Source: a virus. Taken from it: DNA of 56,139 nucleotides. Location: positions 1 to 56,139 of the IMG/VR virus record IMGVR_UViG_3300029986_000023; one strand, given 5' to 3'. Made by a program: the position numbers and the translations under genes. The notes below the pieces were generated by a model. It was not told the DNA's origin. It did no database searches and saw only the letters and a list, made by a program, of their open reading frames with translations. The stretch's first letter is position 1. Every line of letters begins with the position of its first letter. Below, one piece after another: positions 7,231 through 56,139 of the stretch.

Positions 7231-9120
7231 TTATTGAATAGGCGGCATTGGGACTGGTGCGGCAGGTCCTGGAGGGCCAGGTGGCGCTGGGGGTGGACCA
7301 GGCGGTGCAGCAGGTGGAGGTGGAGCTGCTGGCTGTTGTGGTGCTGCGGGCGCAGGAGCCTGTTGAGGAGCCATGGCTTGCTGTAACGCTTGCATGGCTT
7401 CTGGTGAAAGCGTCGTATACGCTTGCATATAGGCCATGGGGTTTATCTTGAGCAACATGGCTGCCCCTGCGGTTGCTTTTGGATCGGGATATTCAAGGCG
7501 TTCAAGTTCCGTAACAATGTCTATAGACCCAGAGCCAAATAGATCAACTGCTTCGTTGCGTCGCATCAAAGGATTGCGTGGGAGCATTGAGCCCTCTTCA
7601 ACAGTGATGTTCAAAATCTTAGTCAAATCAGTCTTTGCAACACCCTCTTCATTTGGCTCATCTTGATAGACGTACATCATCTGTGCCATGTAGTTGAAAA
7701 CGAAATCGACCATTTGCTCGATCTGTTCAACGACAGGAGCCGAGCGCGATGTGTCGTCTTGGTTTTTAATGATCTGACCACGCACTGATTCTTCGGAAGC
7801 AGTACCGGAAGGCGTAACACCACGAATCCCGAAGATGTTCTGAATCTCTAAACGTTTATCTTGAATATCCTCGACGATATACGCTGGTAACGCAGGAGCT
7901 TGAAATCGCTGCACAACCTTTGTAATGTCGTCACCTGGTGCCCTGATAGCTCCACCACGTTTTAACGCAGCTACGGCTTGTGTAGCTTGATCCTGATCCA
8001 TCTTGTTAGAGAATACCCAACCGTTATTTGAATCGTCGGCATTCTTGTCGATCTGTTTGGTGCGCTTGTTTAACAAGTCTTGCATCGAGATTGATTGTTC
8101 AATGAACGAAGTGAAGTCAAACGGTCGCTCACCATCATTGAAGAACCACATGAAGCTAAATGGCATTTCAGGATGAATGAAATGGTTAGCTCCAAGAACT
8201 TGTTGTGTCTCGCCAGTCTCCTCTCCATCATCACCTTTAATTGGTTCATCGTAACCATAATTCCAGTGAGGATTCTTATTCTTATCCAAGATATGCCCGC
8301 GCATCTCCCAAAAGACATATTCAGAAGTCCACCACTCACGAAAGCCTAGTACGGTACCTAATTTTCCACCGCATGCACGTGTGAGCCATTCCTTCTGCTC
8401 TGGGAAACGCACGATCAGGTTTTCACCTGAATCAAACACGTATTGACCGATGTAACGACCTGTAAACTTGCCACCATCAAACGTTCCTTTAGGATCAATA
8501 ATAAGTTTCTTTGGATCAACCTTTTCAACGTTGATTGATAAAGTCTTTTGATTCCACGTAACTTTTAGCACTCCGAGTAAGTCAATCAACCAGTCTCGCA
8601 CCGCGGACCGGACTTTAACGCGTAAATGTACTTTGTCTGATACGTCTTCAAGACTACGACCTACAGCGTCGGCTAAAGCAATACCTGTATCTGTATCATC
8701 AGTCTCTACGTTTGGTTCAGGGTCTTCACGGGCTACCATCGGTAACAACGTTTCAACGGCTTGGAAGATTGCGTTATCTACAATTCCATACCCATCACCA
8801 TTGCCTGTGTGACCATTGCTCATTCCGTAATGTTCACCTTTGTAGTATTTGAAGTTCCTTGAAGAACGCATCTTTACTTCCGCGTAGTAACCAGCAAACT
8901 CAGAAGTCCATGTAGAAGTGAGTGTTGATAACTCCTCGTCAGTCATCTCCAAACTAAGAACATCCTCGGGTGAGGTGATGCGCCCTTCTGTTTGGTTATC
9001 AATAGCTTTCTTTGTTTTGTTGAAAGGTGCGAAAAGACCACCCACTTGGTCAATAATGCCCTTAAGTGCAGGGTTGATTCCACCTGTCTCTGATCGTTTG
9101 CGACCGATGCCTGAAGCCAT
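7231..9120 (-). CDS. Portal protein (arm A)
   Basis: 629 residues, the size of podovirus-type portals, which form the dodecameric DNA channel at one capsid vertex. It is homologous along its length to the arm B portal at 44529-46415: shared blocks include VETLLPMVAREDPEPNV, DPKKLIIDPKGTF, GFREWWTSE and NKNPHWNYG. The last 50 or so residues are almost only Pro, Ala and Gln, with runs such as AAPPPPAAPPGPPPAPPGP. The start codon lies right after the T tract of a terminator-like hairpin (9123-9154). It follows TerL, the usual order. Confidence 0.88.
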   Translation of the reverse strand: MASGIGRKRSETGGINPALKGIIDQVGGLFAPFNKTKKAIDNQTEGRITSPEDVLSLEMTDEELSTLTSTWTSEFAGYYAEVKMRSSRNFKYYKGEHYGMSNGHTGNGDGYGIVDNAIFQAVETLLPMVAREDPEPNVETDDTDTGIALADAVGRSLEDVSDKVHLRVKVRSAVRDWLIDLLGVLKVTWNQKTLSINVEKVDPKKLIIDPKGTFDGGKFTGRYIGQYVFDSGENLIVRFPEQKEWLTRACGGKLGTVLGFREWWTSEYVFWEMRGHILDKNKNPHWNYGYDEPIKGDDGEETGETQQVLGANHFIHPEMPFSFMWFFNDGERPFDFTSFIEQSISMQDLLNKRTKQIDKNADDSNNGWVFSNKMDQDQATQAVAALKRGGAIRAPGDDITKVVQRFQAPALPAYIVEDIQDKRLEIQNIFGIRGVTPSGTASEESVRGQIIKNQDDTSRSAPVVEQIEQMVDFVFNYMAQMMYVYQDEPNEEGVAKTDLTKILNITVEEGSMLPRNPLMRRNEAVDLFGSGSIDIVTELERLEYPDPKATAGAAMLLKINPMAYMQAYTTLSPEAMQALQQAMAPQQAPAPAAPQQPAAPPPPAAPPGPPPAPPGPPGPAAPVPMPPIQ

Positions 9121-9122
9121 AC

Positions 9123-9154
9123 AAAAAAGGCGACAAAGAATGAATCTTGTCGCC
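9123..9154 (-). terminator. Intrinsic terminator or attenuator abutting the portal start
   Basis: Read on the minus strand: GGCGACAA, a ten-base loop, TTGTCGCC, then six T, then G and TATGG, where the ATG is the portal start. The eight-pair stem plus T tract is a textbook intrinsic terminator. Arm B has a differently sequenced stem with the same layout before its portal gene, so the structure rather than the sequence is kept. It probably limits read-through from the terminase genes into the portal and capsid genes. Confidence 0.8.
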
Positions 9155-9195
9155 CCTCTCGTTACAAGCTAGGGCTTTCTAGCTAGAATTAAACA

Positions 9196-9336
9196 CTAAA
9201 CTTTTGGATGTGTCAAATATAAATGTTTCTCGCATTTAGAATAGTTACCCAAATCATCAAAGTGAGCGACAAAACTTCCCTGTGTCATATCAAATAATCC
9301 GTCCTGCGCGAAAGCAATGATCTTATCAAAATGCAT
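9196..9336 (-). CDS. Small conserved protein after TerL (arm A)
   Basis: 46 residues from MHFDKIIAF, a start preceded by GTGAT as in many genes here. A longer form from 9438 (80 residues) overlaps the TerL end and is possible. The segment FDMTQGSFVAHFDDLGNYSKCEKHLYL aligns by eye with FDIAEGSVTIHYDSAGCIKKL in the arm B gene at the same place (46480-46677). Function unknown; conservation of place and motif supports a real gene. Confidence 0.55.
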   Translation of the reverse strand: MHFDKIIAFAQDGLFDMTQGSFVAHFDDLGNYSKCEKHLYLTHPKV

Positions 9337-9364
9337 ATCACAATAAGCGTGAAATGCTTCTGAA

Positions 9365-10984
9365 CTAGATGTCACGCCAATCCCTGTCCCGTTCAGGACG
9401 ACGGTTATTGATCCCAACCCAAGAGGTTTTTCCATCATAAGATGTTATTGGCGCTTGAGGGATTGAATTCCAATCAAACGCATTAGGATCAACAAAGTTT
9501 CCGCCGTCTTTGAATCCAAACTTGTCCATTCCCACGCGAAAATAGACGAGTGCGTGGACGAGGTGATCTGGCCCGTTTCGTTGCCATACATATTGCTTTA
9601 CACCTAACTTATCCTCTTCTTCTGTTCGGTAAATGTTAGCAAAGTGCAGCCAAACTTGTTGCCAGTCCTCTCGTGTGCCGTAGATCGGAATGCGCTTGGC
9701 ACTAAACTCATCAATCAACATCTGAATCGTCCTGTTGCGGTCTACAACTACTTTGCCGTACTCGCTTCCTTCTCCCCATTGAATGAGCTGTTGGGTTTTT
9801 CTGTCTCGCCTGTAGTAAGTGAGAAACACGCGGCCATTATATCGCTCTTGCAACTCTCTAATGCCGATAAGGTCGCCTCCCTGATCGCTAACCAGGATAG
9901 ATTTAGGCCAGCGTTTGAGGAGCCGTTCAAGCTCATCATAAGACTCGCAAGATCCCCAATGGAACACTCCGTCTTTATTTCCACAGACGTACCAAATTGG
10001 GAGTCCGGTATCAACACCAATAACAACGGGATCTTCTTCGGTGTGTTGCTCATAATCCTTAAGGTTTTGGAAAAGCTTATCCTCAGTCATCTTGCTGCCG
10101 CTTCCAACGAACGGTTGGCCTAAGACGAAGTTGCTAAAATTCTCGGCTGTCATCGTCCTGTGGGCTTCAATGATCTCTGCCGCACTTACCGAAGGAACCA
10201 TGAGCTGGCTGATCCAGTAACCACTATATTTTGGCTTTACTTCAAATTTTCTGGCATGCCACTCTCCGTGACGTCTATCGTTATCTGATATTTCTTGCCC
10301 ACAAGCTGCACATATAAATCTTTTCTGTTGTTGATCCACGTTATTTGGCCATTGAAGAAACTGTTGCTTTTTGCAAAATCCACAAGTAACAAACCAATGC
10401 TTTTGATCGCTTTCCTGCCAGAATCTATGAACTCCGTTTCCTTCAAAAGAAGGGTTACTAAATCGCCATTGCCACTTCTTTTTCGAGTGTTGGAGGCGCG
10501 AGACATATTGGTCAATTACGGGTTGATTAGACCGATCTTCTTCATCGTGAATGTTTAGATCGCTTGAGAATGATAGGGCTGCGCGTTCAGTCCAGGTACC
10601 ACGCAAGTAGACTGTATTTTGTCCTATACGCTTCTGTTCAACACTGTCCTTATCTCCGCTTATCCAACTCTGTAAAACAGGATTTTCATTGACAATAGGA
10701 TCGAGTTTACCGCTCACCAGATCATGCGCATCAGTAACTGTAGGCATTGTATATACTGCGTTGATTCCAAAGTTCTTTACTGCCCACAACATCTTGAGAA
10801 GAAACGTTGTCGTCTTACCACACTGGGCAGCTGCTAGAACAACTTGGAAGGGTGACCAGTCTTTCAGGATGTCCCAAAGATAAGGGTGTTCATTTAGATC
10901 AAAAGGCTTACCATTCTCTGTCTTGATTTGGTTTGAGTTTATCCAGGCGATAATACTTTGATTTTCAGCATCTTTGAGATTCAT
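9365..10984 (-). CDS. terL: Terminase large subunit (arm A)
   Basis: 539 residues, a GpA-like packaging motor. Walker A is AAQCGKTT at residues 52-59 (Lys57) and Walker B is DLNIHDEED at 142-150. A zinc ribbon follows (CGFC at 201-204, CAACG at 225-229), which is typical of this terminase branch. The C-terminal nuclease domain shows VIGVDTG (Asp325), LVSDQGGD (Asp367) and DHLVHAL (473-479) as candidate metal ligands. It overlaps the upstream zinc-ribbon gene by four bases (ATGA). It cuts and translocates concatemeric DNA together with TerS. Confidence 0.93.
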   Translation of the reverse strand: MNLKDAENQSIIAWINSNQIKTENGKPFDLNEHPYLWDILKDWSPFQVVLAAAQCGKTTTFLLKMLWAVKNFGINAVYTMPTVTDAHDLVSGKLDPIVNENPVLQSWISGDKDSVEQKRIGQNTVYLRGTWTERAALSFSSDLNIHDEEDRSNQPVIDQYVSRLQHSKKKWQWRFSNPSFEGNGVHRFWQESDQKHWFVTCGFCKKQQFLQWPNNVDQQQKRFICAACGQEISDNDRRHGEWHARKFEVKPKYSGYWISQLMVPSVSAAEIIEAHRTMTAENFSNFVLGQPFVGSGSKMTEDKLFQNLKDYEQHTEEDPVVIGVDTGLPIWYVCGNKDGVFHWGSCESYDELERLLKRWPKSILVSDQGGDLIGIRELQERYNGRVFLTYYRRDRKTQQLIQWGEGSEYGKVVVDRNRTIQMLIDEFSAKRIPIYGTREDWQQVWLHFANIYRTEEEDKLGVKQYVWQRNGPDHLVHALVYFRVGMDKFGFKDGGNFVDPNAFDWNSIPQAPITSYDGKTSWVGINNRRPERDRDWRDI

Positions 10985-12131: not shown

Positions 12132-14019
<1,888 letters not shown>

Positions 14020-20894: not shown

Positions 20895-21145
20895 AATCAA
20901 TCATTATCTCACTCATTACTTGGATATTGTTTTTACTTGCTGCCCGTCGTTCTTATGTGATCTGGTTATATCTAGGCAATTTGTTGGATGAAATAAGCTA
21001 CTACGCCAATAAAGACATTAACAGTAATAAAGACTGGCGATGGCGTTATAAAGAATTTAACAAAGTATCTCAAGTTCAAATGCTTATCAAATTTTGGAAA
21101 CCGTTAAAATCGTTTTGGAAAGACCATTCCTTCCATACAGACTAA
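20891..21145 (+). CDS. Small membrane-anchored protein
   Basis: 84 residues. One N-terminal hydrophobic segment (IIISLITWILFLLAA) preceded by MKS, then a basic, aromatic soluble part (DWRWRYKEFNK, FWKPLKSFWKD). Overlaps the relic upstream by four bases. No counterpart in arm B at this place. Function unknown. Confidence 0.5.
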   Translation: MKSIIISLITWILFLLAARRSYVIWLYLGNLLDEISYYANKDINSNKDWRWRYKEFNKVSQVQMLIKFWKPLKSFWKDHSFHTD

Positions 21146-21190
21146 TATGCTCTGTCTCACCTACTAATCTAATAAAATATCAATAAACAT

Positions 21191-21553
21191 ATGAACTCAA
21201 TCATTATCGACGGAGTAACCTACGTCCCAGAAGGAACAATTAAAGGCCAAACAGCTGTGAACACTGACGGTTTGAAATACTGCATTGTTCGTACTTACAG
21301 TGCTGGTGTATTCGCTGGTTATCTCAAAAGTCTCGTGGGAAAAGAAGGTATCGTTTTGAATGCTCGACGTTTGTGGTACTGGGCAGGAGCCGCTTCACTC
21401 TCTCAACTTGCTATGGAAGGTGTGAGTAAACCAAAAGAATGTAAGTTTCCTTGCGAAGTTAACGAGGTGCAATTATCAGAAGTAATTGAAGTAATCCCAT
21501 GTACCGAAGAAGCTCAAAAGTCCATCGCTAAGGTGGCGAACTGGAGTGAGTAA
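21191..21553 (+). CDS. DUF6948-like conserved phage protein
   Basis: 120 residues. The block YCIVRTYSAGVFAGYLKSLV, then LNARRLWYWAGAASLSQLA, then CKFPC and VIEVIPCTEEA, matches a family of unknown function seen in many phages and prophages (from memory, DUF6948). It is followed one base after its stop by the Gly-X repeat gene. Such pairs occur, to my recollection, in other phages, so the two may act together. Preceded by an A/T-rich leader with no Shine-Dalgarno sequence. Role unknown. Confidence 0.75.
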   Translation: MNSIIIDGVTYVPEGTIKGQTAVNTDGLKYCIVRTYSAGVFAGYLKSLVGKEGIVLNARRLWYWAGAASLSQLAMEGVSKPKECKFPCEVNEVQLSEVIEVIPCTEEAQKSIAKVANWSE

Positions 21554-21554
21554 T

Positions 21555-21821
21555 ATGACCACTACAATCGCGTCAGGCAACGGCTACGGCGACGGCTACG
21601 GAAACGGCAACGGCTACGGCTACGGAAACGGCAACGGCTACGGAAACGGCAACGGCTACGGAAACGGCGACGGCGACGGCTACGGCGACGGCTACGGAAA
21701 CGGCTACGGCGACGGCAACGGCTACGGCTACGGAAACGGCAACGGCTACGGAAACGGCAACGGCGACGGCAACGGCAACGGCTACGGAAACGGAAACGGC
21801 AACGGCAACGGCAACGGCTAG
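21555..21821 (+). CDS. Gly-(Asn/Tyr/Asp) repeat protein
   Basis: 88 residues from MTTTIASGNG. From residue 8 on, every second residue is Gly and the other is Asn, Tyr or Asp. At DNA level the unit is six bases, GGC or GGA followed by AAC, TAC or GAC; the non-Gly codon changes only at its first base, and GGA occurs only before AAC. No fold or motif besides the repeat. It may form a flexible or phase-separating chain, or a polar zipper. The perfect reading frame through about 40 units argues for selection. It lies directly after the DUF6948-like gene. Confidence 0.7.
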   Translation: MTTTIASGNGYGDGYGNGNGYGYGNGNGYGNGNGYGNGDGDGYGDGYGNGYGDGNGYGYGNGNGYGNGNGDGNGNGYGNGNGNGNGNG

Positions 21822-21827
21822 GCTTGT

Positions 21828-21866
21828 ATGTCTTTTTGTCTCACCTGTGGCTCTACAACACTATGA
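21828..21866 (+). CDS. Possible 12-residue CxxC peptide
   Basis: MSFCLTCGSTTL then stop; the stop overlaps the ATG of the next gene (CTATGA), so it could couple translation of that gene. Preceded by TTGT. Present identically in the second copy. Too short to be sure. Confidence 0.25.
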   Translation: MSFCLTCGSTTL

Positions 21867-22099
21867 AAAAGGCATTAGTTGAACTACGAATTCAAATGGT
21901 TATAGATGCGCCGGATTATTCAAATGATCCTGATGAAGAAAACTTAAGTGAATTCTATTTTGAACAACACAAGTGCGTAGAGGATTTGATAGATGAATTG
22001 AAGAAGACGCAAAAGGAAGGAGTCTGTAGGTGTAACGATGCCTCTATCCATTTTCTGGGTTTTGAAGGCGGAGAAAACAAACTGGAACAACCTGAATAA
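21863..22099 (+). CDS. Small acidic early protein
   Basis: 78 residues from MKKALVELRIQM; a TTG start further upstream is less likely. Acidic middle (PDYSNDPDEENLSEFYFEQ), helical CVEDLIDELKKTQKEG, then CRC. Last gene before the 400-base gap; no known family. Identical in the second copy. Confidence 0.55.
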   Translation: MKKALVELRIQMVIDAPDYSNDPDEENLSEFYFEQHKCVEDLIDELKKTQKEGVCRCNDASIHFLGFEGGENKLEQPE

Positions 22100-22500
22100 A
22101 GTAGTATAATGGATTAGCCAATGGTAGCGCGAGCTGGCGAGGTTCCGTCTTCGTCGGTTCCGTCGAGTACATAGTTTACGCGTTGAATGGTTCGATTCCG
22201 CCCTGGTGGGCAACGGGTTCGGCTGTGTACTCAACAGAACGAAAGCTCAAAAACTTGTTCATTTGATTGAGTTCATGAGGCGGCCGAGGAGTCGCTAAAA
22301 GGTGCATAATGAGACACTGGGGAGGCTCAACCAAGGCCGCAAGGCTGTATTACCAAGTGTGTCTGCCCGTCAAAGCGGGCCGTGAACTCTATTGAATGAA
22401 TATGGCTTAGTAATACGCAAGCCTGCGAGTATAAAGATCGTAGAGGATAAGATTCACGACATAATCGCTAAGCCCCACTGGGCCGAATCATTTGAGTGAT
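22100..22500 (+). other. Gene-free 400-base stretch, possible structured RNA (copy 1)
   Basis: Begins with a perfect TATAAT at 22105-22110; the -35 region (CTGGAA) is weak. Downstream, GAGTACATAG (22165-22174) pairs with CTGTGTACTC (22223-22232) over ten bases, enclosing tRNA-like pieces (GGTTCGATTCC). Upstream is AATGGTAGCGCGAG, similar to a tRNA D arm, but no acceptor stem can be formed, so I do not call a tRNA. A GCCCG-loop-CGGGC hairpin lies near 22370. It ends at the NinB-like gene. Could be a noncoding RNA or an origin-like region. Confidence 0.4.
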
Positions 22501-22854
22501 ATGGAAGAGAAACCAAAAATAGATAACAAGAGAACGCTATCACAGAATCGAGCTTTGCATTTATACTTTACTCTCGTTGCCACGTCTTTGAATGCCGCTG
22601 GAATAGAAATCAAGGCGTCACTCCCCGACATGGAGATTCCATGGTCGCCAGAGACGGTCAAAATTCTTCTATGGAAGACGGTTCAAAGAATACTGGTTCA
22701 AAAGGAACACACGGCGGACTTGTCCACAAAGGAAATTGATTTGGTGTATGACGTGGTGAATCGTCATCTGGCATCGCTCGGCATCCATGAGGCATTTCCA
22801 AGCATTGAGACTTTGATGCTGATAAACCCCAGCAAAAGTGATACAATATCCTAA
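22501..22854 (+). CDS. NinB-like conserved phage protein
   Basis: 117 residues from MEEKPKIDNKR, preceded by GAGTGAT. The block TLSQNRALHLYFTLVATSLN, then IPWSPETVKILLWKTVQ and DLSTKEIDLVYDVVNRHLA, is a pattern I know from many phage early regions, often beside NinG-type genes; some are labelled NinB- or recombination-related. Overlaps the NinG-type gene in TAATGA. The function is taken from neighbourhood, so only moderately sure. Confidence 0.65.
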   Translation: MEEKPKIDNKRTLSQNRALHLYFTLVATSLNAAGIEIKASLPDMEIPWSPETVKILLWKTVQRILVQKEHTADLSTKEIDLVYDVVNRHLASLGIHEAFPSIETLMLINPSKSDTIS

Positions 22855-37808: not shown

Positions 37809-38033
37809 TTAAACCGTGATTGCATTAGCGAGGCAGAACGCTTCCATCGTTTCACAATCAGCGAGAGCTTGTGTGTTGAGCGCAACGGCGGCGGTTACGA
37901 TAGGTGTTTGTGCCTGTGTATTTGCTTGGATGGCATCAACTTGTACTTTTGAAAATGTCTGAACAGATCCATCGTCGGCAGTGACCTGAAGCGCGTTGTT
38001 TCCGTCGGCATCCTGAACGAGTGCGAGGGTCAT
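37809..38033 (-). CDS. Small protein downstream of the fibre
   Basis: 74 residues, MTLALVQDADGNNALQVTAD at the start, then a helical Ala/Gln-rich part (IQANTQAQTPIVTAAVALN). Starts nine bases after the fibre gene stop. The first seven codons are duplicated at positions 1-21. Function unknown; possibly linked to the fibre because it lies directly beside it in both copies. Confidence 0.55.
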   Translation of the reverse strand: MTLALVQDADGNNALQVTADDGSVQTFSKVQVDAIQANTQAQTPIVTAAVALNTQALADCETMEAFCLANAITV

Positions 38034-38042
38034 AGAAGGATT

Positions 38043-39380
38043 TTAGGAGTAAACAGGGATATATCCGACGGTCGCTCCACCCGTGATCACCTTGATAAAT
38101 CCTTGTGGGTTAGAGGTCGTTGCTCCAGTCGTCCAGGTCGTCGCTGGGGTCGAGGTGGTCGCGGTGTAGGTGATATTGGCTGTCGTACTTCCGATACCCG
38201 AAAGATCTATACCGCCATCAGCGCGTATTGAACCAGATTTGATCCACAGAGCATATTTGTTCGTCAGCGTTGCATTGCTCCCAGCTATTGGCGCGCCCGT
38301 AATTGTCACTGTACTCGCTGCTGTGAACGTAGAGGCAGCAGCAGCGGCAAACGTCGGGGCATTAATTTGCATGTAATCAGCCTCTGCAACCGTACCTGTC
38401 GCCCACGTTTGAGTAGACGTAACGAACAAGAATTCTGGAGCGTTCACTGTGGTCGTTATACCCGTATTATTTGGCGGAGTCCATGAAGAAAAAGCAACTG
38501 CCCCAGATGAAGTTGCAGACCCGTTCCATGCTTGTGAGCCAGAGGCTGCAACCGCTAAAGCAATTGTAGTGTTGTTCACAATAAACTGAAGTGTCGCATT
38601 ATTCGGTATAACTCGAAAGACCCCTGCACGACCGAAGGTGCCATTATTTTCAGTAAAACCAACAACTAAACCATAACTACCTGCAACACCACTATTAACT
38701 GCAAAATAGGATTCATTGGATGTACCTGAACTCGACGTACTCATTTGTAAGACTTGCGTTCCATCATTAGTGATGATTGCTTCACCCGCTCCATTAGCTC
38801 GATGAACAAAAGCCGTACATAAACCCATACTAAGGTAGCCTGTTGACACGGAGGCGTTTACTTGAAGCTGACCATCTAAACGAGTTACACCGCCTTTAGA
38901 CCATAAACAATACCCATTCGTAATTGTAGCATTCGTACCAGCAATTGGAGCACCTGAAATAGTAAACGTAGCCGCAGAAGTAATTGTCGAAGCTCCCGCG
39001 AACGCCAAAGTGGGCGCATTGAATTGAGCGTAATCGTATTCAGCCAATGCACCTGTCGCGTAGGTTTGCGTTGAGGTTGCAAGTATAAATTGCGGCGCGT
39101 TTGTCGAGAGCGTGATTGCTGTATTGGATGCTGGCGTAAACAAGGCTGTGATGGGCACGCCTGATGAAGATGCTGTTTGCGCTACGGAAAGAGTAGCCGT
39201 TGGCGAAGCTGTGCCAATCCCTAAACGAAAGTTCGTATTATCCCAAAAGAACTTGGCATTGTCTTGTCCCAGATTTCCTGAACCGTCTACGAACAAAACT
39301 GATCCACTGGTTCCACTCCCAACGGCATCCCCAATAGCCATGACTCCGCTATTGCCGCCGCTTCCAAAAAAAGCTGACAT
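38043..39380 (-). CDS. Repeat-containing tail fibre (arm B)
   Basis: 445 residues. From GQDNAKFFWDNTNFRLGIGT onward it is nearly the same as the arm A fibre at 31-1932, but it has two rather than three of the 85-residue units and a shorter N-terminus (MSAFFGSGGNSGVMAIGDAV). The attachment part thus differs while the receptor-binding part is shared. The last unit differs (ALWIKSGSIRADGG against AINVKAGLSRFTGG). Recombination has clearly taken place inside this gene. Confidence 0.75.
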   Translation of the reverse strand: MSAFFGSGGNSGVMAIGDAVGSGTSGSVLFVDGSGNLGQDNAKFFWDNTNFRLGIGTASPTATLSVAQTASSSGVPITALFTPASNTAITLSTNAPQFILATSTQTYATGALAEYDYAQFNAPTLAFAGASTITSAATFTISGAPIAGTNATITNGYCLWSKGGVTRLDGQLQVNASVSTGYLSMGLCTAFVHRANGAGEAIITNDGTQVLQMSTSSSGTSNESYFAVNSGVAGSYGLVVGFTENNGTFGRAGVFRVIPNNATLQFIVNNTTIALAVAASGSQAWNGSATSSGAVAFSSWTPPNNTGITTTVNAPEFLFVTSTQTWATGTVAEADYMQINAPTFAAAAASTFTAASTVTITGAPIAGSNATLTNKYALWIKSGSIRADGGIDLSGIGSTTANITYTATTSTPATTWTTGATTSNPQGFIKVITGGATVGYIPVYS

Positions 39381-44528: not shown

Positions 44529-46415
44529 TTAGGCTAAGGGGTTATTAGAGGCTCCGAGCGCAGGCATCGGGCCTGCTGGAGGTGCTGGGGCTTGTTGCGG
44601 TGGCGGTAGACCCGCTGGGGAACCAGGCGGCGCACCAGGGACACCAGGCGGTGCTGGCGGCGCGGCTGGCCCACCCGCAGGTGATACCTGACCAGAATCA
44701 TCTGGCTTCTGTGGCTGATTCAATTCTGGGAAGAGCGAAGCAGGATTTGATTTCCACAGATACAAGTTCTTCGCGGCCTCGCGTGGGTTCGGGTAATCGA
44801 GGCGTTCAAACAGCGTGATAGGATCGAGCGCACCAGCCGAGAACAATTCCACGGCTTCGTTGCGGCGCGACATCGGATCTTGCGGGATCATCGAACCTTC
44901 CTTGATCGTGACGCGGATGCGGCGGTTCAGATCCGACTTCTTCAGCTCGACGTACTCGACGGCGTTTTCCTTCCCGATGATCGAAGCAGTGTGATCCTCG
45001 GAGTAGTAGACGTAGAAGAGTTGAACCCACCAGTTGTAAATGTTGTCGGCTGCCTGTTCGATGAAGGCTGTGACACCCCCACCGATTCGATCCAATTCCT
45101 GCGAGCGCGCGGCTGCTTGACCCTTCTGCGTCTTGGAATCGCCTTGAGCAGCTTGACCACCCGACAAGACTTTCGTTCCAAATATGCCTTTGAGTTCGTT
45201 GCGATAGTCCAGGAGTGTTTGATAGACCATCGGAGCCAACTCTGGGGCTGCTAGGCGTGCGATGGCTTTATTCACGTCACCGCTTGGAACCCAGATCGTG
45301 TTGCCCTTGCGGACGGCTCCAGCGACGCTGTATGCCTGCTCCTTGGTGAACACGTCGCCCGACACTGCCAAACCATTGTTGGTATTCTGCGCGTTCTTGC
45401 GGATCTGTTTGTTCAGTTCGTTGATGTTCTTTTGGTTTGGAATCGCTTGCTCGAACATGTTCGTATCGTCCACTGGATGCTTGCCCAAGTTGAAGACCGA
45501 CAGGAAGATGAACGGCATTTTGCGCTGCTGGAAGTGGTTCAACCCACGGCGCAAGGCTTTCGGACTGACACCTGGAATGTTCGGATCAGGCGGGATGTCG
45601 TAGTTCCAGTGAGGATTGCGGCCTTTGGAAAGGACTTTCTTCTTCAACGTCGAGAACGTCATGTCGGGCGTCCACCACTCGATGAAGCCGATCTCAGTTG
45701 CATCGTTGTCCTTTGATTCCGTGTCGATTTCCTTGGCCATCGACTTGAACATGCGCTTCATGTCGCCTGCCGTTTCCTTGCGGTGAATGCCGAGGTACCC
45801 GCCCGTGTACTCGCCTTTCTCGTCGATCGTGGCATCAGGGTCGAGGATCATCACCTGTGGACGTTTGACGACCGTCTTGATGTCGTCCGACTGCTCTGAC
45901 CAACCGACCTGCACCACACCGAGGAAGTACATAGCCCAGTAGCGCGTGAGACGCGACAGGCTGATTTTGAGCGACTGACGATCGGCCTGGAAGCGGAGGA
46001 ACTGGGCCACCTTGTCCGCGAGATCAATGCCGTCAGGCGTGTTGTCCGTCGTCACGACTGGATCAGGATTGCGCGCCGATGAGAACGGGATGAAGGTTTC
46101 GAGAGCTTCCCAAAGCGTGTTGTCCGCCATTGGATCGTTCTTCACCATGTCGTCGATGTTGTTGTTGAACGCCTTGCCCAACCAGTATTCATCCGAGGCT
46201 TTGCGACGCTTCTGAAGGCCAGAATCAAAATCCTTCCAGCGATCCTCCCAAGTTTTCGCTGATTTCAAAAGATCAGCGTCATTGGTGTCTGTTTGTAATT
46301 CAGGAAGAGAAGGCGTGAGTGGGCCTTCCATCGTTTCCAGTTTTTCGGGATTCTCAACCTTGTTGATATCTTGGCCAAGGGAGAAGAATCCATCGAGTAA
46401 ATCAGGAGAACCCAT
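44529..46415 (-). CDS. Portal protein (arm B)
   Basis: 628 residues. Homologue of 7231-9120 with shared ALETFIPFSSARNPDPV, VMILDPDATIDEKGEYTGGY, EWWTPD and GRNPHWNYD. It also has a C-terminal tail of Pro, Ala, Gly and Gln (PAGGPAAPPAPPGVPGAPPG), so the tail is kept in kind but not in sequence. Preceded by the conserved hairpin 46418-46462. Confidence 0.88.
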   Translation of the reverse strand: MGSPDLLDGFFSLGQDINKVENPEKLETMEGPLTPSLPELQTDTNDADLLKSAKTWEDRWKDFDSGLQKRRKASDEYWLGKAFNNNIDDMVKNDPMADNTLWEALETFIPFSSARNPDPVVTTDNTPDGIDLADKVAQFLRFQADRQSLKISLSRLTRYWAMYFLGVVQVGWSEQSDDIKTVVKRPQVMILDPDATIDEKGEYTGGYLGIHRKETAGDMKRMFKSMAKEIDTESKDNDATEIGFIEWWTPDMTFSTLKKKVLSKGRNPHWNYDIPPDPNIPGVSPKALRRGLNHFQQRKMPFIFLSVFNLGKHPVDDTNMFEQAIPNQKNINELNKQIRKNAQNTNNGLAVSGDVFTKEQAYSVAGAVRKGNTIWVPSGDVNKAIARLAAPELAPMVYQTLLDYRNELKGIFGTKVLSGGQAAQGDSKTQKGQAAARSQELDRIGGGVTAFIEQAADNIYNWWVQLFYVYYSEDHTASIIGKENAVEYVELKKSDLNRRIRVTIKEGSMIPQDPMSRRNEAVELFSAGALDPITLFERLDYPNPREAAKNLYLWKSNPASLFPELNQPQKPDDSGQVSPAGGPAAPPAPPGVPGAPPGSPAGLPPPQQAPAPPAGPMPALGASNNPLA

Positions 46416-46417
46416 AC

Positions 46418-46462
46418 AAAAAGGCGAGACACCAAAGAATAAATTCTTGAAGGTATCCCGCC
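46418..46462 (-). terminator. Terminator or attenuator abutting the arm B portal start
   Basis: Minus strand: GGCGGGATACC (46462-46452), 18-base loop with an inner hairpin (AAGAA/TTCTT), GGTGTCTCGCC (46433-46423), T5, then GTATGG with the portal ATG. Eleven pairs including two G-U. Differs in sequence from the arm A hairpin but has the same place, tail and outer pairs. Confidence 0.78.
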
Positions 46463-46479
46463 GCTGTATAGGTAGGGAA

Positions 46480-46677
46480 TCAGGAGCAACCGAGTACGGC
46501 TAAGTTGTCTTTACGTTCCAATTTCTTGATACAACCCGCGCTATCATAGTGGATTGTAACACTTCCTTCCGCTATGTCAAAAGCACCCGAAGCAATCAAG
46601 ATGTTTGCCAGGTCAATGTACCGCTGGATCTTGGTGTCAGCCGATACGATCTGGATTGAAAGCAGGGTGGGTGGCAT
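46480..46677 (-). CDS. Small conserved protein after TerL (arm B)
   Basis: 65 residues from MPPTLLSIQIV; the ATG follows the TerL stop as TGATATG. FDIAEGSVTIHYDSAGCIKKL aligns with the arm A gene at 9196-9336. Last gene before the portal hairpin. Function unknown. Confidence 0.55.
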   Translation of the reverse strand: MPPTLLSIQIVSADTKIQRYIDLANILIASGAFDIAEGSVTIHYDSAGCIKKLERKDNLAVLGCS

Positions 46678-46678
46678 A

Positions 46679-48316
46679 TCAATCATCGGTTACCTCGTCC
46701 TCGTCTGGAAACGCTGGCGATGGCGCGTGCGTCTTGCCGAAGATGAGCGATGGCGACGGTCGAAGCTCGGTTGAGTCCTCGCCTGATGACATGAACGAGG
46801 CTTGACCCTTCTGCCCGTATTTCTCCATGCCGACGCGCCACAGCACCGTTGCGTGCGCCCAGTGATCCATGCCGTTTGAAGAGAGCCACTGGAAGATGTC
46901 GTTGGCCCGCGAATCCTTGCCGTTGACCTTGTAGAGCGTGCGCCAGTGTTTGATGTAATCCTCCCAATCCATCAGGTTGCCTTGAAGCGGGATGCGGCGC
47001 GTCAGGAACTCGTCAATCACTAACTGGATCATCGGGTTACGATCCGAGGCCACGGAGCCGAAGTCTTGTTTCTCACCCCATTTTATAAGATTGAAGTTCT
47101 TCTTGTCGCGTGCGTAGTGGTTCAGAAACACTCGACCAGGGAACTTCTCACGCAACTCGCGCGGCCCTGTGATGTCAGGGGCACCATCGACGATCAGAAC
47201 AGCAGTTGAATCGTTGCGAAGATATTGCTCGATCGTCTTCCAGCTTTCCGTCACGCCGTAGAAGTAAAGTCCCTCGGAGTTGCCCATGACGTAGTGCTTC
47301 TTGACGCCACTATCGCAGCCGATGATTGTTCCCTTCTGCGAGTTGACCTGGAGCGTCATGTTGCGCGTGAAGATGTCGTCGCTGATCGACGAACCATCCA
47401 CAGCGTATGGCAGACCGAGAACCGATCCCCAAAAGTATTCGTGTCCCTTGGTGTTGAAGTATCCCAGGATCTCGCGTGCCGTGACCCAGGGAGCCATCAT
47501 CAGGCTCATGTGGTAGCCAGACCATTCACCAACAGCTGTGGGCTTCCAGACGCCAACCCGACGTGTCTCACGGGTGATCTCGGCGTCACAACCGAGACAT
47601 TGGTAACACTCGCGCACCTTGTCGATGGATTCAGGCCAGCGAAGATACTGCTCCTCACCACACTCGGGGCAGGTGATGAACCATTCTTTCTTGTCCGAGA
47701 GTTCCCACGCAACGGAGCCAGCCGCACCCATGTTGCGAGGGTTGGTGAACTGCCACTTGCCTTTGTACTTGGACTGCTGAAGGCGTGAGTCCAGCTTCTC
47801 GATGTTCTCCTGGCTCGACGCGTCGAGTTCGTCGTTGACGTTCAGATCCGACGTGGTGATGAGCGTGTCGGCCAGCGTGTTGGTTCCCTGGTAGTTGACC
47901 ATGTTATCCCCAACCTGCTTCTGTTCGAGCGTGTCTGATGTTTTGATGTACTTCTGAAGCTCTGGGTTGTTTTCGATGATGCGGTTGACCTTGGAGCGAA
48001 CGAAGCCGTACATCGCATCCATCGTCGGCAGTGTGTAGATGATCTCAAACCTTTTATACTTTGCGGCCCACAGAGTCTTGATGATCATCAGCGTTGAGAA
48101 GCCGAGCTGCGCTGCCTTCAGCACGATCTGAAGCGACGACCAATCATCAGCGATATCAAAAAGAAAAAGATGGTCGCGCCAATCGAGCGATTCACCTTTC
48201 TCGTTCTTCACGTTGTAGAGATCAAGCCAAATGGAAAACTCCAACGTCGTCAGGTCGATGAGATCCTGCTTAGTTGGACTTGACGTATTTTGTTCGGACG
48301 TTGGTTTTGATCCCAT
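46679..48316 (-). CDS. terL: Terminase large subunit (arm B)
   Basis: 545 residues from MGSKPTSEQN, overlapping TerS by 47 bases. The ATP site reads KAAQLGFST (67-75): the usual GK Lys is replaced by Phe and a Lys lies upstream, a variant known in other terminases. Walker B is DLNVNDELD (157-165). A zinc ribbon (CPECGEE, CLGCDAE) follows as in arm A. Nuclease candidates are IIGCDSG, VLIVDGAPD and DHWAHAT. Homologous to 9365-10984 over its length. Confidence 0.92.
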   Translation of the reverse strand: MGSKPTSEQNTSSPTKQDLIDLTTLEFSIWLDLYNVKNEKGESLDWRDHLFLFDIADDWSSLQIVLKAAQLGFSTLMIIKTLWAAKYKRFEIIYTLPTMDAMYGFVRSKVNRIIENNPELQKYIKTSDTLEQKQVGDNMVNYQGTNTLADTLITTSDLNVNDELDASSQENIEKLDSRLQQSKYKGKWQFTNPRNMGAAGSVAWELSDKKEWFITCPECGEEQYLRWPESIDKVRECYQCLGCDAEITRETRRVGVWKPTAVGEWSGYHMSLMMAPWVTAREILGYFNTKGHEYFWGSVLGLPYAVDGSSISDDIFTRNMTLQVNSQKGTIIGCDSGVKKHYVMGNSEGLYFYGVTESWKTIEQYLRNDSTAVLIVDGAPDITGPRELREKFPGRVFLNHYARDKKNFNLIKWGEKQDFGSVASDRNPMIQLVIDEFLTRRIPLQGNLMDWEDYIKHWRTLYKVNGKDSRANDIFQWLSSNGMDHWAHATVLWRVGMEKYGQKGQASFMSSGEDSTELRPSPSLIFGKTHAPSPAFPDEDEVTDD

Positions 48317-48683
48317 GTGAGAGGAGAGCCAATTCTTCCAAACGAGCCTGATCAATGTTCACTTGAAGCACTTCAGCCTTAATGGGCGCGTATGTCCCAT
48401 GAACCTTGAAAGTCATGTCAGCAGCCGTCAAACGATCTCGCGCTTTCTCTTCCACATTGGTAAGGATCTCGCTCACAACTCCCTTGGCAGTTTCAGGATC
48501 GAAGCCAAGTATTCTCATTTCCTCTTGGACGCCTTTTGCGGCTATCACACGGCCAGGTGTTGCTTTCGCTGTCGTTTCGTCGTAGCCAGCTGAAACCAGC
48601 ATTGTGTCTAACCTGTCGTAATCCCCATTAGACACTGCCTCGACGAGTTTCTTAGCAAGCCGTTTCTGTCGCAAAGTGGCCAT
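48270..48683 (-). CDS. terS: Terminase small subunit (arm B)
   Basis: 137 residues. N-terminal RQKRLAKKLVEAVSNGDYDR and LVSAGYDETTAKATPGRVIA form a helix-turn-helix typical of small terminases, followed by a helical oligomerisation part (EEKARDRLTAADMTFKVHG). Not obviously similar to the arm A protein, so the two arms probably recognise different packaging sites. Its end overlaps the TerL start. Confidence 0.72.
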   Translation of the reverse strand: MATLRQKRLAKKLVEAVSNGDYDRLDTMLVSAGYDETTAKATPGRVIAAKGVQEEMRILGFDPETAKGVVSEILTNVEEKARDRLTAADMTFKVHGTYAPIKAEVLQVNIDQARLEELALLSHGIKTNVRTKYVKSN

Positions 48684-54245: not shown

Positions 54246-54647
54246 ATGTCATCTAAAACGACACATTGCGAGAAACACGCCAAAGACAGATTTATTACAA
54301 CTTGCCTCTGTAATCCGTCTCATTGTGCCTCTTGCGCTCATCCAATGACGGGATTTGAAAAGGACTTTATGACACACTTAAAATCCGTATCACTTGAGAC
54401 AAAAGTCTCTGTGAAGATACCAAGGAACCAAAAGGAAATGGATAAAATCATTGAGAAAATTAAACATGACACATTCTGCAAGCCAGACCATAACGTTGAA
54501 TCCGACGGAATGGTTGCCTTAAAACTTTCGAGGGCAGATGTTGCTGGACTTATTGTAGCCGTTCAATACCATATAGACGAAAACGAGGACGGACGGGTCG
54601 AGCTAAAGCGTATTCGTACCCACTTGGAAAAAGCTTTGAAGTACTAA
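54246..54647 (+). CDS. Modular early protein with HAKD-CLC zinc module
   Basis: 133 residues. CEKHAKDRFITTCLCNPSHC followed by ASCAHP repeats the N-terminal module of 20486-20833; the rest (KIPRNQKEMDKIIEKIKHD, then helices) is different. Followed by the R2 repeat. Unknown. Confidence 0.55.
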   Translation: MSSKTTHCEKHAKDRFITTCLCNPSHCASCAHPMTGFEKDFMTHLKSVSLETKVSVKIPRNQKEMDKIIEKIKHDTFCKPDHNVESDGMVALKLSRADVAGLIVAVQYHIDENEDGRVELKRIRTHLEKALKY

Positions 54648-54693
54648 TATGCTCATGTCTCACCTACTAATCTAATAAAATATCAATAAACAT

Positions 54694-55056
54694 ATGAAAT
54701 CAATCATTATCGACGGAGTAACCTACGTCCCAGAAGGAACAATTAAAGGCCAAACAGCTGTGAACACTGACGGTTTGAAATACTGCATTGTTCGTACTTA
54801 CAGTGCTGGTGTATTCGCTGGTTATCTCAAAAGTCTCGTGGGAAAAGAAGGTATCGTTTTGAATGCTCGACGTTTGTGGTACTGGGCAGGAGCCGCTTCA
54901 CTCTCTCAACTTGCTATGGAAGGTGTGAGTAAACCAAAAGAATGTAAGTTTCCTTGCGAAGTTAACGAGGTGCAATTATCAGAAGTAATTGAAGTAATCC
55001 CATGTACCGAAGAAGCTCAAAAGTCCATCGCTAAGGTGGCGAACTGGAGTGAGTAA
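54694..55056 (+). CDS. DUF6948-like protein, copy 2
   Basis: 120 residues, the same as 21191-21553 except Lys instead of Asn at residue 2 (one base). All key blocks are kept (ARRLWYWAGAASLSQLA, CKFPC). Followed by the second Gly-X repeat gene. Confidence 0.75.
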   Translation: MKSIIIDGVTYVPEGTIKGQTAVNTDGLKYCIVRTYSAGVFAGYLKSLVGKEGIVLNARRLWYWAGAASLSQLAMEGVSKPKECKFPCEVNEVQLSEVIEVIPCTEEAQKSIAKVANWSE

Positions 55057-55057
55057 T

Positions 55058-55324
55058 ATGACCACTACAATCGCGTCAGGCAACGGCTACGGCGACGGCT
55101 ACGGAAACGGCAACGGCTACGGCTACGGAAACGGCAACGGCTACGGAAACGGCAACGGCTACGGAAACGGCGACGGCGACGGCTACGGCGACGGCTACGG
55201 AAACGGCTACGGCGACGGCAACGGCTACGGCTACGGAAACGGCAACGGCTACGGAAACGGCAACGGCGACGGCAACGGCAACGGCTACGGAAACGGAAAC
55301 GGCAACGGCAACGGCAACGGCTAG
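55058..55324 (+). CDS. Gly-(Asn/Tyr/Asp) repeat protein, copy 2
   Basis: 88 residues, same as 21555-21821 in number and order of units. For a six-base repeat prone to slippage, exact agreement implies very recent common origin of the two copies or an assembly copy. Confidence 0.7.
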   Translation: MTTTIASGNGYGDGYGNGNGYGYGNGNGYGNGNGYGNGDGDGYGDGYGNGYGDGNGYGYGNGNGYGNGNGDGNGNGYGNGNGNGNGNG

Positions 55325-55330
55325 GCTTGT

Positions 55331-55369
55331 ATGTCTTTTTGTCTCACCTGTGGCTCTACAACACTATGA
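55331..55369 (+). CDS. Possible 12-residue CxxC peptide, copy 2
   Basis: Same as 21828-21866, overlapping the next ATG. Weak evidence. Confidence 0.22.
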   Translation: MSFCLTCGSTTL

Positions 55370-55602
55370 AAAAGGCATTAGTTGAACTACGAATTCAAAT
55401 GGTTATAGATGCGCCGGATTATTCAAATGATCCTGATGAAGAAAACTTAAGTGAATTCTATTTTGAACAACACAAGTGCGTAGAGGATTTGATAGATGAA
55501 TTGAAGAAGACGCAAAAGGAAGGAGTCTGTAGGTGTAACGATGCCTCTATCCATTTTCTGGGTTTTGAAGGCGGAGAAAACAAACTGGAACAACCTGAAT
55601 AA
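55366..55602 (+). CDS. Small acidic early protein, copy 2
   Basis: 78 residues, the same as 21863-22099. Ends at the second copy of the gene-free stretch. Confidence 0.55.
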   Translation: MKKALVELRIQMVIDAPDYSNDPDEENLSEFYFEQHKCVEDLIDELKKTQKEGVCRCNDASIHFLGFEGGENKLEQPE

Positions 55603-56003
55603 AGTAGTATAATGGATTAGCCAATGGTAGCGCGAGCTGGCGAGGTTCCGTCTTCGTCGGTTCCGTCGAGTACATAGTTTACGCGTTGAATGGTTCGATT
55701 CCGCCCTGGTGGGCAACGGGTTCGGCTGTGTACTCAACAGAACGAAAGCTCAAAAACTTGTTCATTTGATTGAGTTCATGAGGCGGCCGAGGAGTCGCTA
55801 AAAGGTGCATAATGAGACACTGGGGAGGCTCAACCAAGGCCGCAAGGCTGTATTACCAAGTGTGTCTGCCCGTCAAAGCGGGCCGTGAACTCTATTGAAT
55901 GAATATGGCTTAGTAATACGCAAGCCTGCGAGTATAAAGATCGTAGAGGATAAGATTCACGACATAATCGCTAAGCCCCACTGGGCCGAATCATTTGAGT
56001 GAT
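55603..56003 (+). other. Gene-free 400-base stretch, copy 2
   Basis: Same as 22100-22500, with TATAAT at 55608-55613 and the ten-pair stem at 55668-55677 and 55726-55735. No protein-coding gene seen. Confidence 0.4.
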
Positions 56004-56139
56004 ATGGAAGAGAAACCAAAAATAGATAACAAGAGAACGCTATCACAGAATCGAGCTTTGCATTTATACTTTACTCTCGTTGCCACGTCTTTGAATGCCG
56101 CTGGAATAGAAATCAAGGCGTCACTCCCCGACATGGAGA
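56004..56139 (+). CDS. NinB-like protein, copy 2 (cut by the window end)
   Basis: First 45 codons of the gene seen complete at 22501-22854, starting MEEKPKIDNKRTLSQNR and cut within the ASLPDME stretch. No difference from copy 1. Confidence 0.6.
   Translation, partial: MEEKPKIDNKRTLSQNRALHLYFTLVATSLNAAGIEIKASLPDME

Follow-up and report, generated by a model that had tools for sequence, protein, structure and literature searches.

A candidate transcription attenuator with a co-occurring small gene before the portal genes of phages that probably infect candidate-phyla bacteria

Why should a terminator-like hairpin stand directly before the start codon of a portal gene? The question is raised by an IMG/VR record of 56,139 bases (the whole of which was analysed and is called the window here), in which two podovirus-like late modules, A and B, lie on the minus strand and have the gene order terminase large subunit, small ORF, hairpin, portal in common (Table 1). 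The initial annotation had placed hairpins at 9123-9154 and 46418-46462, each with a T tract touching the portal start, and had offered two ideas: that portal and capsid expression depends on read-through or antitermination, or that terminase is insulated from the structural genes. On the minus strand its coordinates and description are correct. The answer that we favour, and consider rather probable from comparative sequence analysis, is that a small RNA-binding protein encoded by the phage relieves transcription attenuation of the portal and capsid operon.

Table 1. Features of the two terminase-portal junctions in the window
Feature	Coordinates	Strand	Details
Terminase large subunit A	9365..10984	-	phrog_675, E 1.2e-91
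Small ORF A, family 1	9196..9438	-	80 aa; candidate regulator
Promoter-like site A	9188..9216	-	TTGACA (9216-9211), 17 nt, TTTAAT (9193-9188)
Antiterminator-like bipartite hairpin A	9152..9175	-	GCCCT-ag-CTTG-taa-CGAG-a-GGGGC, -9.4 kcal/mol; overlaps terminator 5' arm
Terminator-like hairpin A	9123..9155	-	stem-loop 9155-9129, T6 9128-9123
Portal gene A	7231..9120	-	629 aa; phrog_156, E 1.1e-9
Terminase large subunit B	46679..48355	-	phrog_675, E 1.5e-60
Small ORF B, family 1	46480..46677	-	65 aa; candidate regulator
Promoter-like site B	46553..46580	-	TTGACA (46580-46575), 16 nt, TACAAT (46558-46553); 11/12 matches
Antiterminator-like bipartite hairpin B	46456..46478	-	TCCC-ta-CC-tatacagc-GG-c-GGGA, -5.4 kcal/mol; overlaps terminator 5' arm
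Terminator-like hairpin B	46418..46462	-	stem-loop 46462-46423, T5 46422-46418
Portal gene B	44529..46415	-	628 aa; phrog_156, E 5.4e-9

The two portals are 34% identical, and the N-terminus of portal B, MG..LLDGFFSL, is the conserved N-terminus of the portals of relatives. The record itself looks like two related phages joined, with 21141-22636 equal to 54643-56139 at 99.9% and with 1-201 and 770-1713 recurring at 38013-38213 and 38323-39266 (98%). Since A occurs by itself in other records (34 kb), as does B (36 kb), and one 44 kb record holds both, a chimera and a real tandem are both possible. Module A also carries GroEL (12132-13718, minus strand) and a Cpn10 co-chaperonin (13720-14019, minus strand); groEL is close to terminase in the relative MW202566 as well.

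At site A the stem, GGCGACAA/TTGTCGCC, has eight Watson-Crick pairs and is followed by T6, GT and ATGG; at site B the stem, GGCGGGATACC/GGTGTCTCGCC, has 11 pairs, encloses a small inner hairpin and is followed by T5, GT and ATGG. Depending on the segment folded, the energies are -12.9 to -15.2 kcal/mol for hairpin A and -20.8 to -22.2 kcal/mol for hairpin B. The ATG after each T tract is the start of the portal ORF. Both sites therefore have the sequence hallmark of an intrinsic terminator, a GC-rich stem-loop directly before a T run. A simple terminator scan of the window listed neither site, and no Rfam family matched in the window at the gathering score; four weak Rfam matches below the cut-off (mir-43_2 and CsrC among them) were taken as chance.

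Relatives were collected as several hundred loci from scans of viral contigs and genome contigs. A portal was present in 297 loci, of which 281 were complete enough for use, with the portal N-terminus and 150 nt of upstream sequence, and they formed 134 clusters at 90% portal identity, 132 of them with a usable start. Leader analysis used the 62 clusters that have a hairpin of dG -9 or lower with its T run no more than 36 nt from the ATG. Gene associations were counted in the 144 clusters, out of 148, whose upstream sequence came to at least 420 nt, and the portal tree held 143. The hosts are probably candidate-phyla bacteria, tiny parasites, because TM7 phage DolZOral124_53_65 is the closest of the named phages (27% portal identity) and four of five genome-contig matches are in Patescibacteria or Parcubacteria-type MAGs, the fifth being in an Ignavibacteriae MAG.

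Of the 132 clusters, 54 have a hairpin of dG -12 or lower and a T run no more than 120 nt from the portal ATG, against expectations of 0.3 by dinucleotide shuffles and 1.0 per 132 random windows from the same loci. The hairpin is thus conserved before the portals of many relatives, and the earlier suggestion, made from sites A and B, that structure is kept where sequence is not, is right. With no rule on T imposed, the lowest-energy G-C-closed hairpin was followed by at least five T in six positions in 38 of 47 small-gene clusters, and the same test gave 2 of 137 in windows inside portal genes. The share of T is 60-87% at the first seven positions after the hairpin and 9-26% at the ten before it. 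Since the T run is conserved and falls on the 3' side only, the portal-proximal hairpin looks like an intrinsic terminator of the late strand. Contact between T tract and start codon, as the initial annotation described it, is common and not required: the T run starts 7-31 nt from the ATG in 66 of 70 terminator-bearing clusters and 51-87 nt from it in the other four, and in a few clusters the terminator lies 148-260 nt from the portal ATG. In a survey of 439 starts of ORFs of at least 110 aa, covering the window and 20 pieces of 11 phage records (in two of which sites A and B recur), the ORFs that begin with a close hairpin and T run are mostly portals. The one other strong case is in L449 (G001), where, around 7653-7709, a promoter-like sequence, a long hairpin (-28.4 kcal/mol) and a T run precede the ATG of a 279 aa ORF.

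Terminator features as strong as these are also what the main simple rival calls for, namely a constitutive terminator that does no more than insulate terminase from the structural genes, the portal being expressed by limited read-through or from another promoter and the small gene being unrelated packaging cargo. We consider this unlikely, though the best placed of the alternatives, and the sequence upstream is one reason. Sigma70-like promoters that score at least 10 occur in the 75 nt upstream of the hairpin in 22 of the 62 clusters (1.35 in shuffled sequence), and those that score at least 11 in 10 of 62 (0.1 in shuffled sequence). Sites A and B each have a promoter-like site; that at B is inside small ORF B and about 75 nt before the competing fold described below, farther than in most relatives. 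By these predictions the terminator sits in a leader with promoter-like sites just upstream, as in an attenuator. An insulator is poorly served by a promoter placed before the terminator and not after it, and in most clusters the T tract is too near the ATG for a promoter to fit between them.

The leader was then examined for structure that might compete with the terminator. Simple counts of leader motifs gave a modest excess, and a separate mini-hairpin upstream of the terminator was rejected (14 of 62, against 12.9 by shuffle). A fold signal emerges only when the 5' arm of the terminator may take part: leader and arm can then form a bipartite hairpin, which is a candidate antiterminator. The fold as scored has a lower stem of 3-7 pairs, an internal loop of 2-3 nt on the 5' side and 1 nt on the 3' side, an upper stem of 2-5 pairs and a loop. 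A score of at least 16 is reached in 26 of the 62 clusters, the same sequences from which the pattern was drawn, against 3.0 when leaders were shuffled with the terminator arm fixed; at the level of the family, an antiterminator-like fold that shares a strand with the terminator, as in an attenuator, is therefore present. None of the other internal-loop geometries that were scored showed an excess (0-5 vs 0.7-3.3), and terminator-like sites elsewhere in the same 132 loci reached that score in 38 of 579 cases. Among the 70 loci outside the 62, fold and terminator together (score at least 17) were found up to 260 nt upstream in five; as controls, windows elsewhere gave 3 of 420 and shuffled sequences 0 of 70. 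Internal loops of two nucleotides (aa, ga, ag) go mostly with a 3' A, and those of three (taa, caa, cca, aac) mostly with a 3' C.

Within the window, fold A scores 20.55 (p 0.03 against shuffled leaders), the highest among the terminator-like sites there, and fold B scores 15.8, which is not significant alone (p 0.16). A small hold-out of 16 new clusters, in which six had a terminator and one of those six the fold, weakly supports an antiterminator-like structure. RNAalifold, applied to a MAFFT alignment of 32 selected leaders, returned no pairs and no consensus structure; stems of different length are put out of register in the alignment. The specific geometry of the competing fold is not something that a plain insulator would explain; on the other side, 30 of the 62 clusters, about half of this terminator-bearing set, lack the fold at a score of 14, as an insulator would allow.

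A gene-content comparison of four records with the terminator and three without it gave the small gene between terminase and leader as the sole lead confined to the former. The two small ORFs of the window are 30% identical over 53 aligned positions, and an HMM grown iteratively from them and one relative (family 1) finds the gene, about 65-80 aa long, in 48 of 148 clusters. A close terminator is present in 45 of the 47 clusters with a family-1 gene and in 25 of the 97 without one (Fisher 1.4e-16); L117 and L148 are the exceptions, and by eye each has a hairpin whose T run is interrupted. Records of 17 terminator-less clusters, several of them partial, contain no family-1 gene, whereas all three terminator-bearing control records do. 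A widened small-gene table gives 55 of 60 against 15 of 84 with a close terminator, but it is post hoc, family 3 (see below) and the distant family-1 genes L176 and L203 having been added from terminator-positive/antiterminator-positive loci without a small gene; the 45/47 and 25/97 table is the cleaner one. The median gap between terminase and portal is 49 nt where small gene and close terminator are missing and about 310 nt where this cassette is present.

Both traits have changed many times across the portal tree (Fitch 35 and 22), and a Pagel-type test prefers the dependent over the independent model (LR 54.9, p 3e-11). That small gene and terminator change together speaks against small-gene cargo beside a plain insulator, while the 15 of 70 terminator-bearing clusters without a recognised small gene speak for it. 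Of the two ideas in the initial annotation, then, read-through or antitermination fares better, though the annotation missed the upstream promoter, the competing fold and the small gene; insulation agrees with the strong terminator and leaves the competing fold and the co-occurring small protein unexplained.

No known protein is a convincing relative of family 1, by sequence or by fold. Its AlphaFold model (pLDDT 89.9) has two helices and two strands; neither PDB nor BFVD yielded a match to it at E <= 0.001, and a single row was obtained at Z 2.1, null results that do not establish a new fold. Family 1 is a new family of small proteins that probably bind RNA; we infer RNA binding from the position of the gene and from the occurrence of Com in the same slot. 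Terminator-bearing loci without family 1 have there family 2 (four clusters in all) or a Com-like zinc ribbon (five in all), and L128 and L132 share a third protein type (family 3); comparing the profiles of the three families revealed no homology among them. Four of the five Com-class proteins (L375 is the fifth) were scanned with Pfam PF10122 (cut-off 22.9): L392 is above it (26.8), L410 just below (22.1), and L127 (15.2) and L108 (12.5) are weak matches below it. The small ORFs of the window themselves have no Com match in Pfam.

As outlined in PMC6483171, the Com protein of phage Mu recognises CC(N)2-3GAG in a hairpin loop, acts on a hairpin adjoining an inhibitory structure at mom, and activates mom translation. 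A stem-closed CC(N)2-3GAG is found in the leader, near the start of the target gene, in four of the five Com clusters and in 8 of the 139 others (Fisher 1.4e-4), with 0.2 of five expected by shuffling. This match concerns the Com-class relatives, 5 of 144 clusters only, and not sites A and B of the window. A protein type whose target is known thus usually has that target in the leader, which is the best hint that proteins encoded in this slot act on the leader. For families 2 and 3, an automatic parse gave ga/a internal loops in five of six leaders; the sixth, L273, was parsed as tcg/g, and a ga/a fold can be drawn there by eye.

Attenuation relieved by the small protein would run as follows, with termination, binding, the direction of the effect and its timing read from the features above. 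Polymerase would start at a promoter in or just after the small gene behind terminase, or read in from terminase, transcribe a short leader and halt at the T tract immediately ahead of the portal ATG. Alternatively, the leader could fold into the bipartite hairpin, whose 3' strand is the 5' arm of the terminator, and as the two folds share this strand they would be mutually exclusive. In the 32 clusters with a score of at least 14 the competing fold has a mean energy of -6.1 kcal/mol and the terminator one of -18.1 kcal/mol, so that the weaker fold would need a partner or kinetics to prevail. That partner is most likely the small protein encoded directly upstream, which, once accumulated, would bind and stabilise the competing fold and so permit read-through into portal, scaffold and capsid.

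The main regulated rival is a translational switch like that of Mu com and mom, in which the hairpin blocks initiation at the portal and the small protein opens it. We judge it improbable, more so than the insulator. It draws on the Com-type proteins in the slot of five clusters and on the action of Mu Com on translation, and in many cases the hairpin lies so close to the ATG that one ribosome footprint would span both. Shine-Dalgarno sites are few among the genes of the window (at least 5 nt in 1 of 44 and 4 nt in 3 of 44), which leaves scope for local structure to influence initiation; for the same reason, hairpin and T tract at the start codon displace nothing. A translational switch has no need of the T tract, which is conserved all the same (38/47 against 2/137, as given above), and the hairpin is 77-148 nt from the portal ATG in L125, L132 and L273. 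As a counterpoint, the hairpin abuts the ATG of an inserted small ORF in L128 and L375.

The locus resembles several known systems without being identical to any. In the RAT leaders of BglG, LicT and SacY, as outlined in PMC3369936, a short stem interrupted by an asymmetric internal loop has one strand in common with the terminator, and a small RNA-binding domain stabilises the antiterminator. RAT has two asymmetric internal loops, a CAT-domain protein and sugar genes as targets, whereas the fold here has a single internal loop (2-3/1 nt), the target is a phage portal operon, and Pfam gave no CAT or PRD match for seven small proteins. ANTAR systems (AmiR, NasR, EutV) likewise use a protein-stabilised antiterminator overlapping a terminator, but their leaders, by the account in PMC3369936, have two hairpins with critical A1 and G4 in the loops, in contrast with the single bipartite hairpin and variable loops of 3-9 nt found here. 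In its predicted logic the locus is close to RAT and ANTAR leaders but a member of neither. Mu com and mom resemble it in that a Com-like zinc ribbon is encoded just upstream of the target gene in the Com clusters, with the hairpin motif in most of their leaders, and differ in that the target here is portal, not mom, and the inhibitory structure looks like an intrinsic terminator.

Far less probable is a small RNA of about 60-130 nt, bounded by promoter and terminator, with a role elsewhere (say in packaging or on host RNAs); by prediction the locus does have a promoter, a terminator and a short transcript between them, but sequence outside the stems is poorly conserved among leaders, the element stands before portal in the records examined, and the strand common to the two folds would go unexplained. 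Late or structural genes under antitermination by lambda Q, AlpA or gene-transfer-agent factors are likewise kept off by a terminator near the promoter; those factors load on promoter DNA and polymerase, whereas the variable part here is an RNA fold that competes with the terminator. That polymerase is made to ignore the terminator by a cis-acting RNA of the HK022 put kind, or by a factor loaded on DNA in the manner of lambda Q or AlpA, is scarcely credible, since, although a promoter with an immediate terminator is the AlpA layout as sketched in PMC9371919 and put RNA also has two stem-loops by the description in PMC9378689, the put stem-loops form together while the two folds here share a strand, and a Pfam scan of the 20 other window proteins found no known antiterminator and no Q-like or AlpA-like gene.

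Relief of attenuation at sites A and B may be one instance of something broader. Tentatively, and with a little less than even confidence, we propose that in phages of candidate-phyla bacteria a modular cassette at the terminase-portal junction, made of a gene for a small RNA-binding protein and a matching attenuator leader, gates particle assembly and has been repeatedly gained, lost and swapped. It would come with at least four protein types (families 1, 2 and 3 and Com, among which no sequence homology was detected), each with its own leader type, and many lineages without it would start portal mRNA at or near the ATG. To our knowledge, gene timing in phages of uncultured candidate-phyla bacteria is almost unexplored. 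Literature searches on phage portal attenuation and on Patescibacteria with phage and leaderless returned nothing related, which does not prove absence from print. The cassette would be a well-defined switch, open to experiment, between the genes for packaging and those for assembly; standard reporter assays could test each protein with its RNA target, and the phage need not be grown. Com-like proteins may also have a part to play outside mom.

Relatives without the cassette, which the initial annotation missed, often have a -10 box near the portal start. Of the 70 clusters without a close terminator, 24 have an exact TATAAT among the 40 nt that precede the ATG, against 5.9 in shuffled sequence. 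Because its spacing from the ATG is usually 6-9 nt, the portal mRNA of these terminator-less relatives is suggested to be leaderless or nearly so. TATAAT or a near match can be seen 6-9 nt before the portal ATG in L062, L063, L159, L165, L019 and others. In two terminator-less relatives a tRNA-Met(CAT) gene lies upstream of the portal, at 2641-2713 in L066 and at 3602-3674 in L151.
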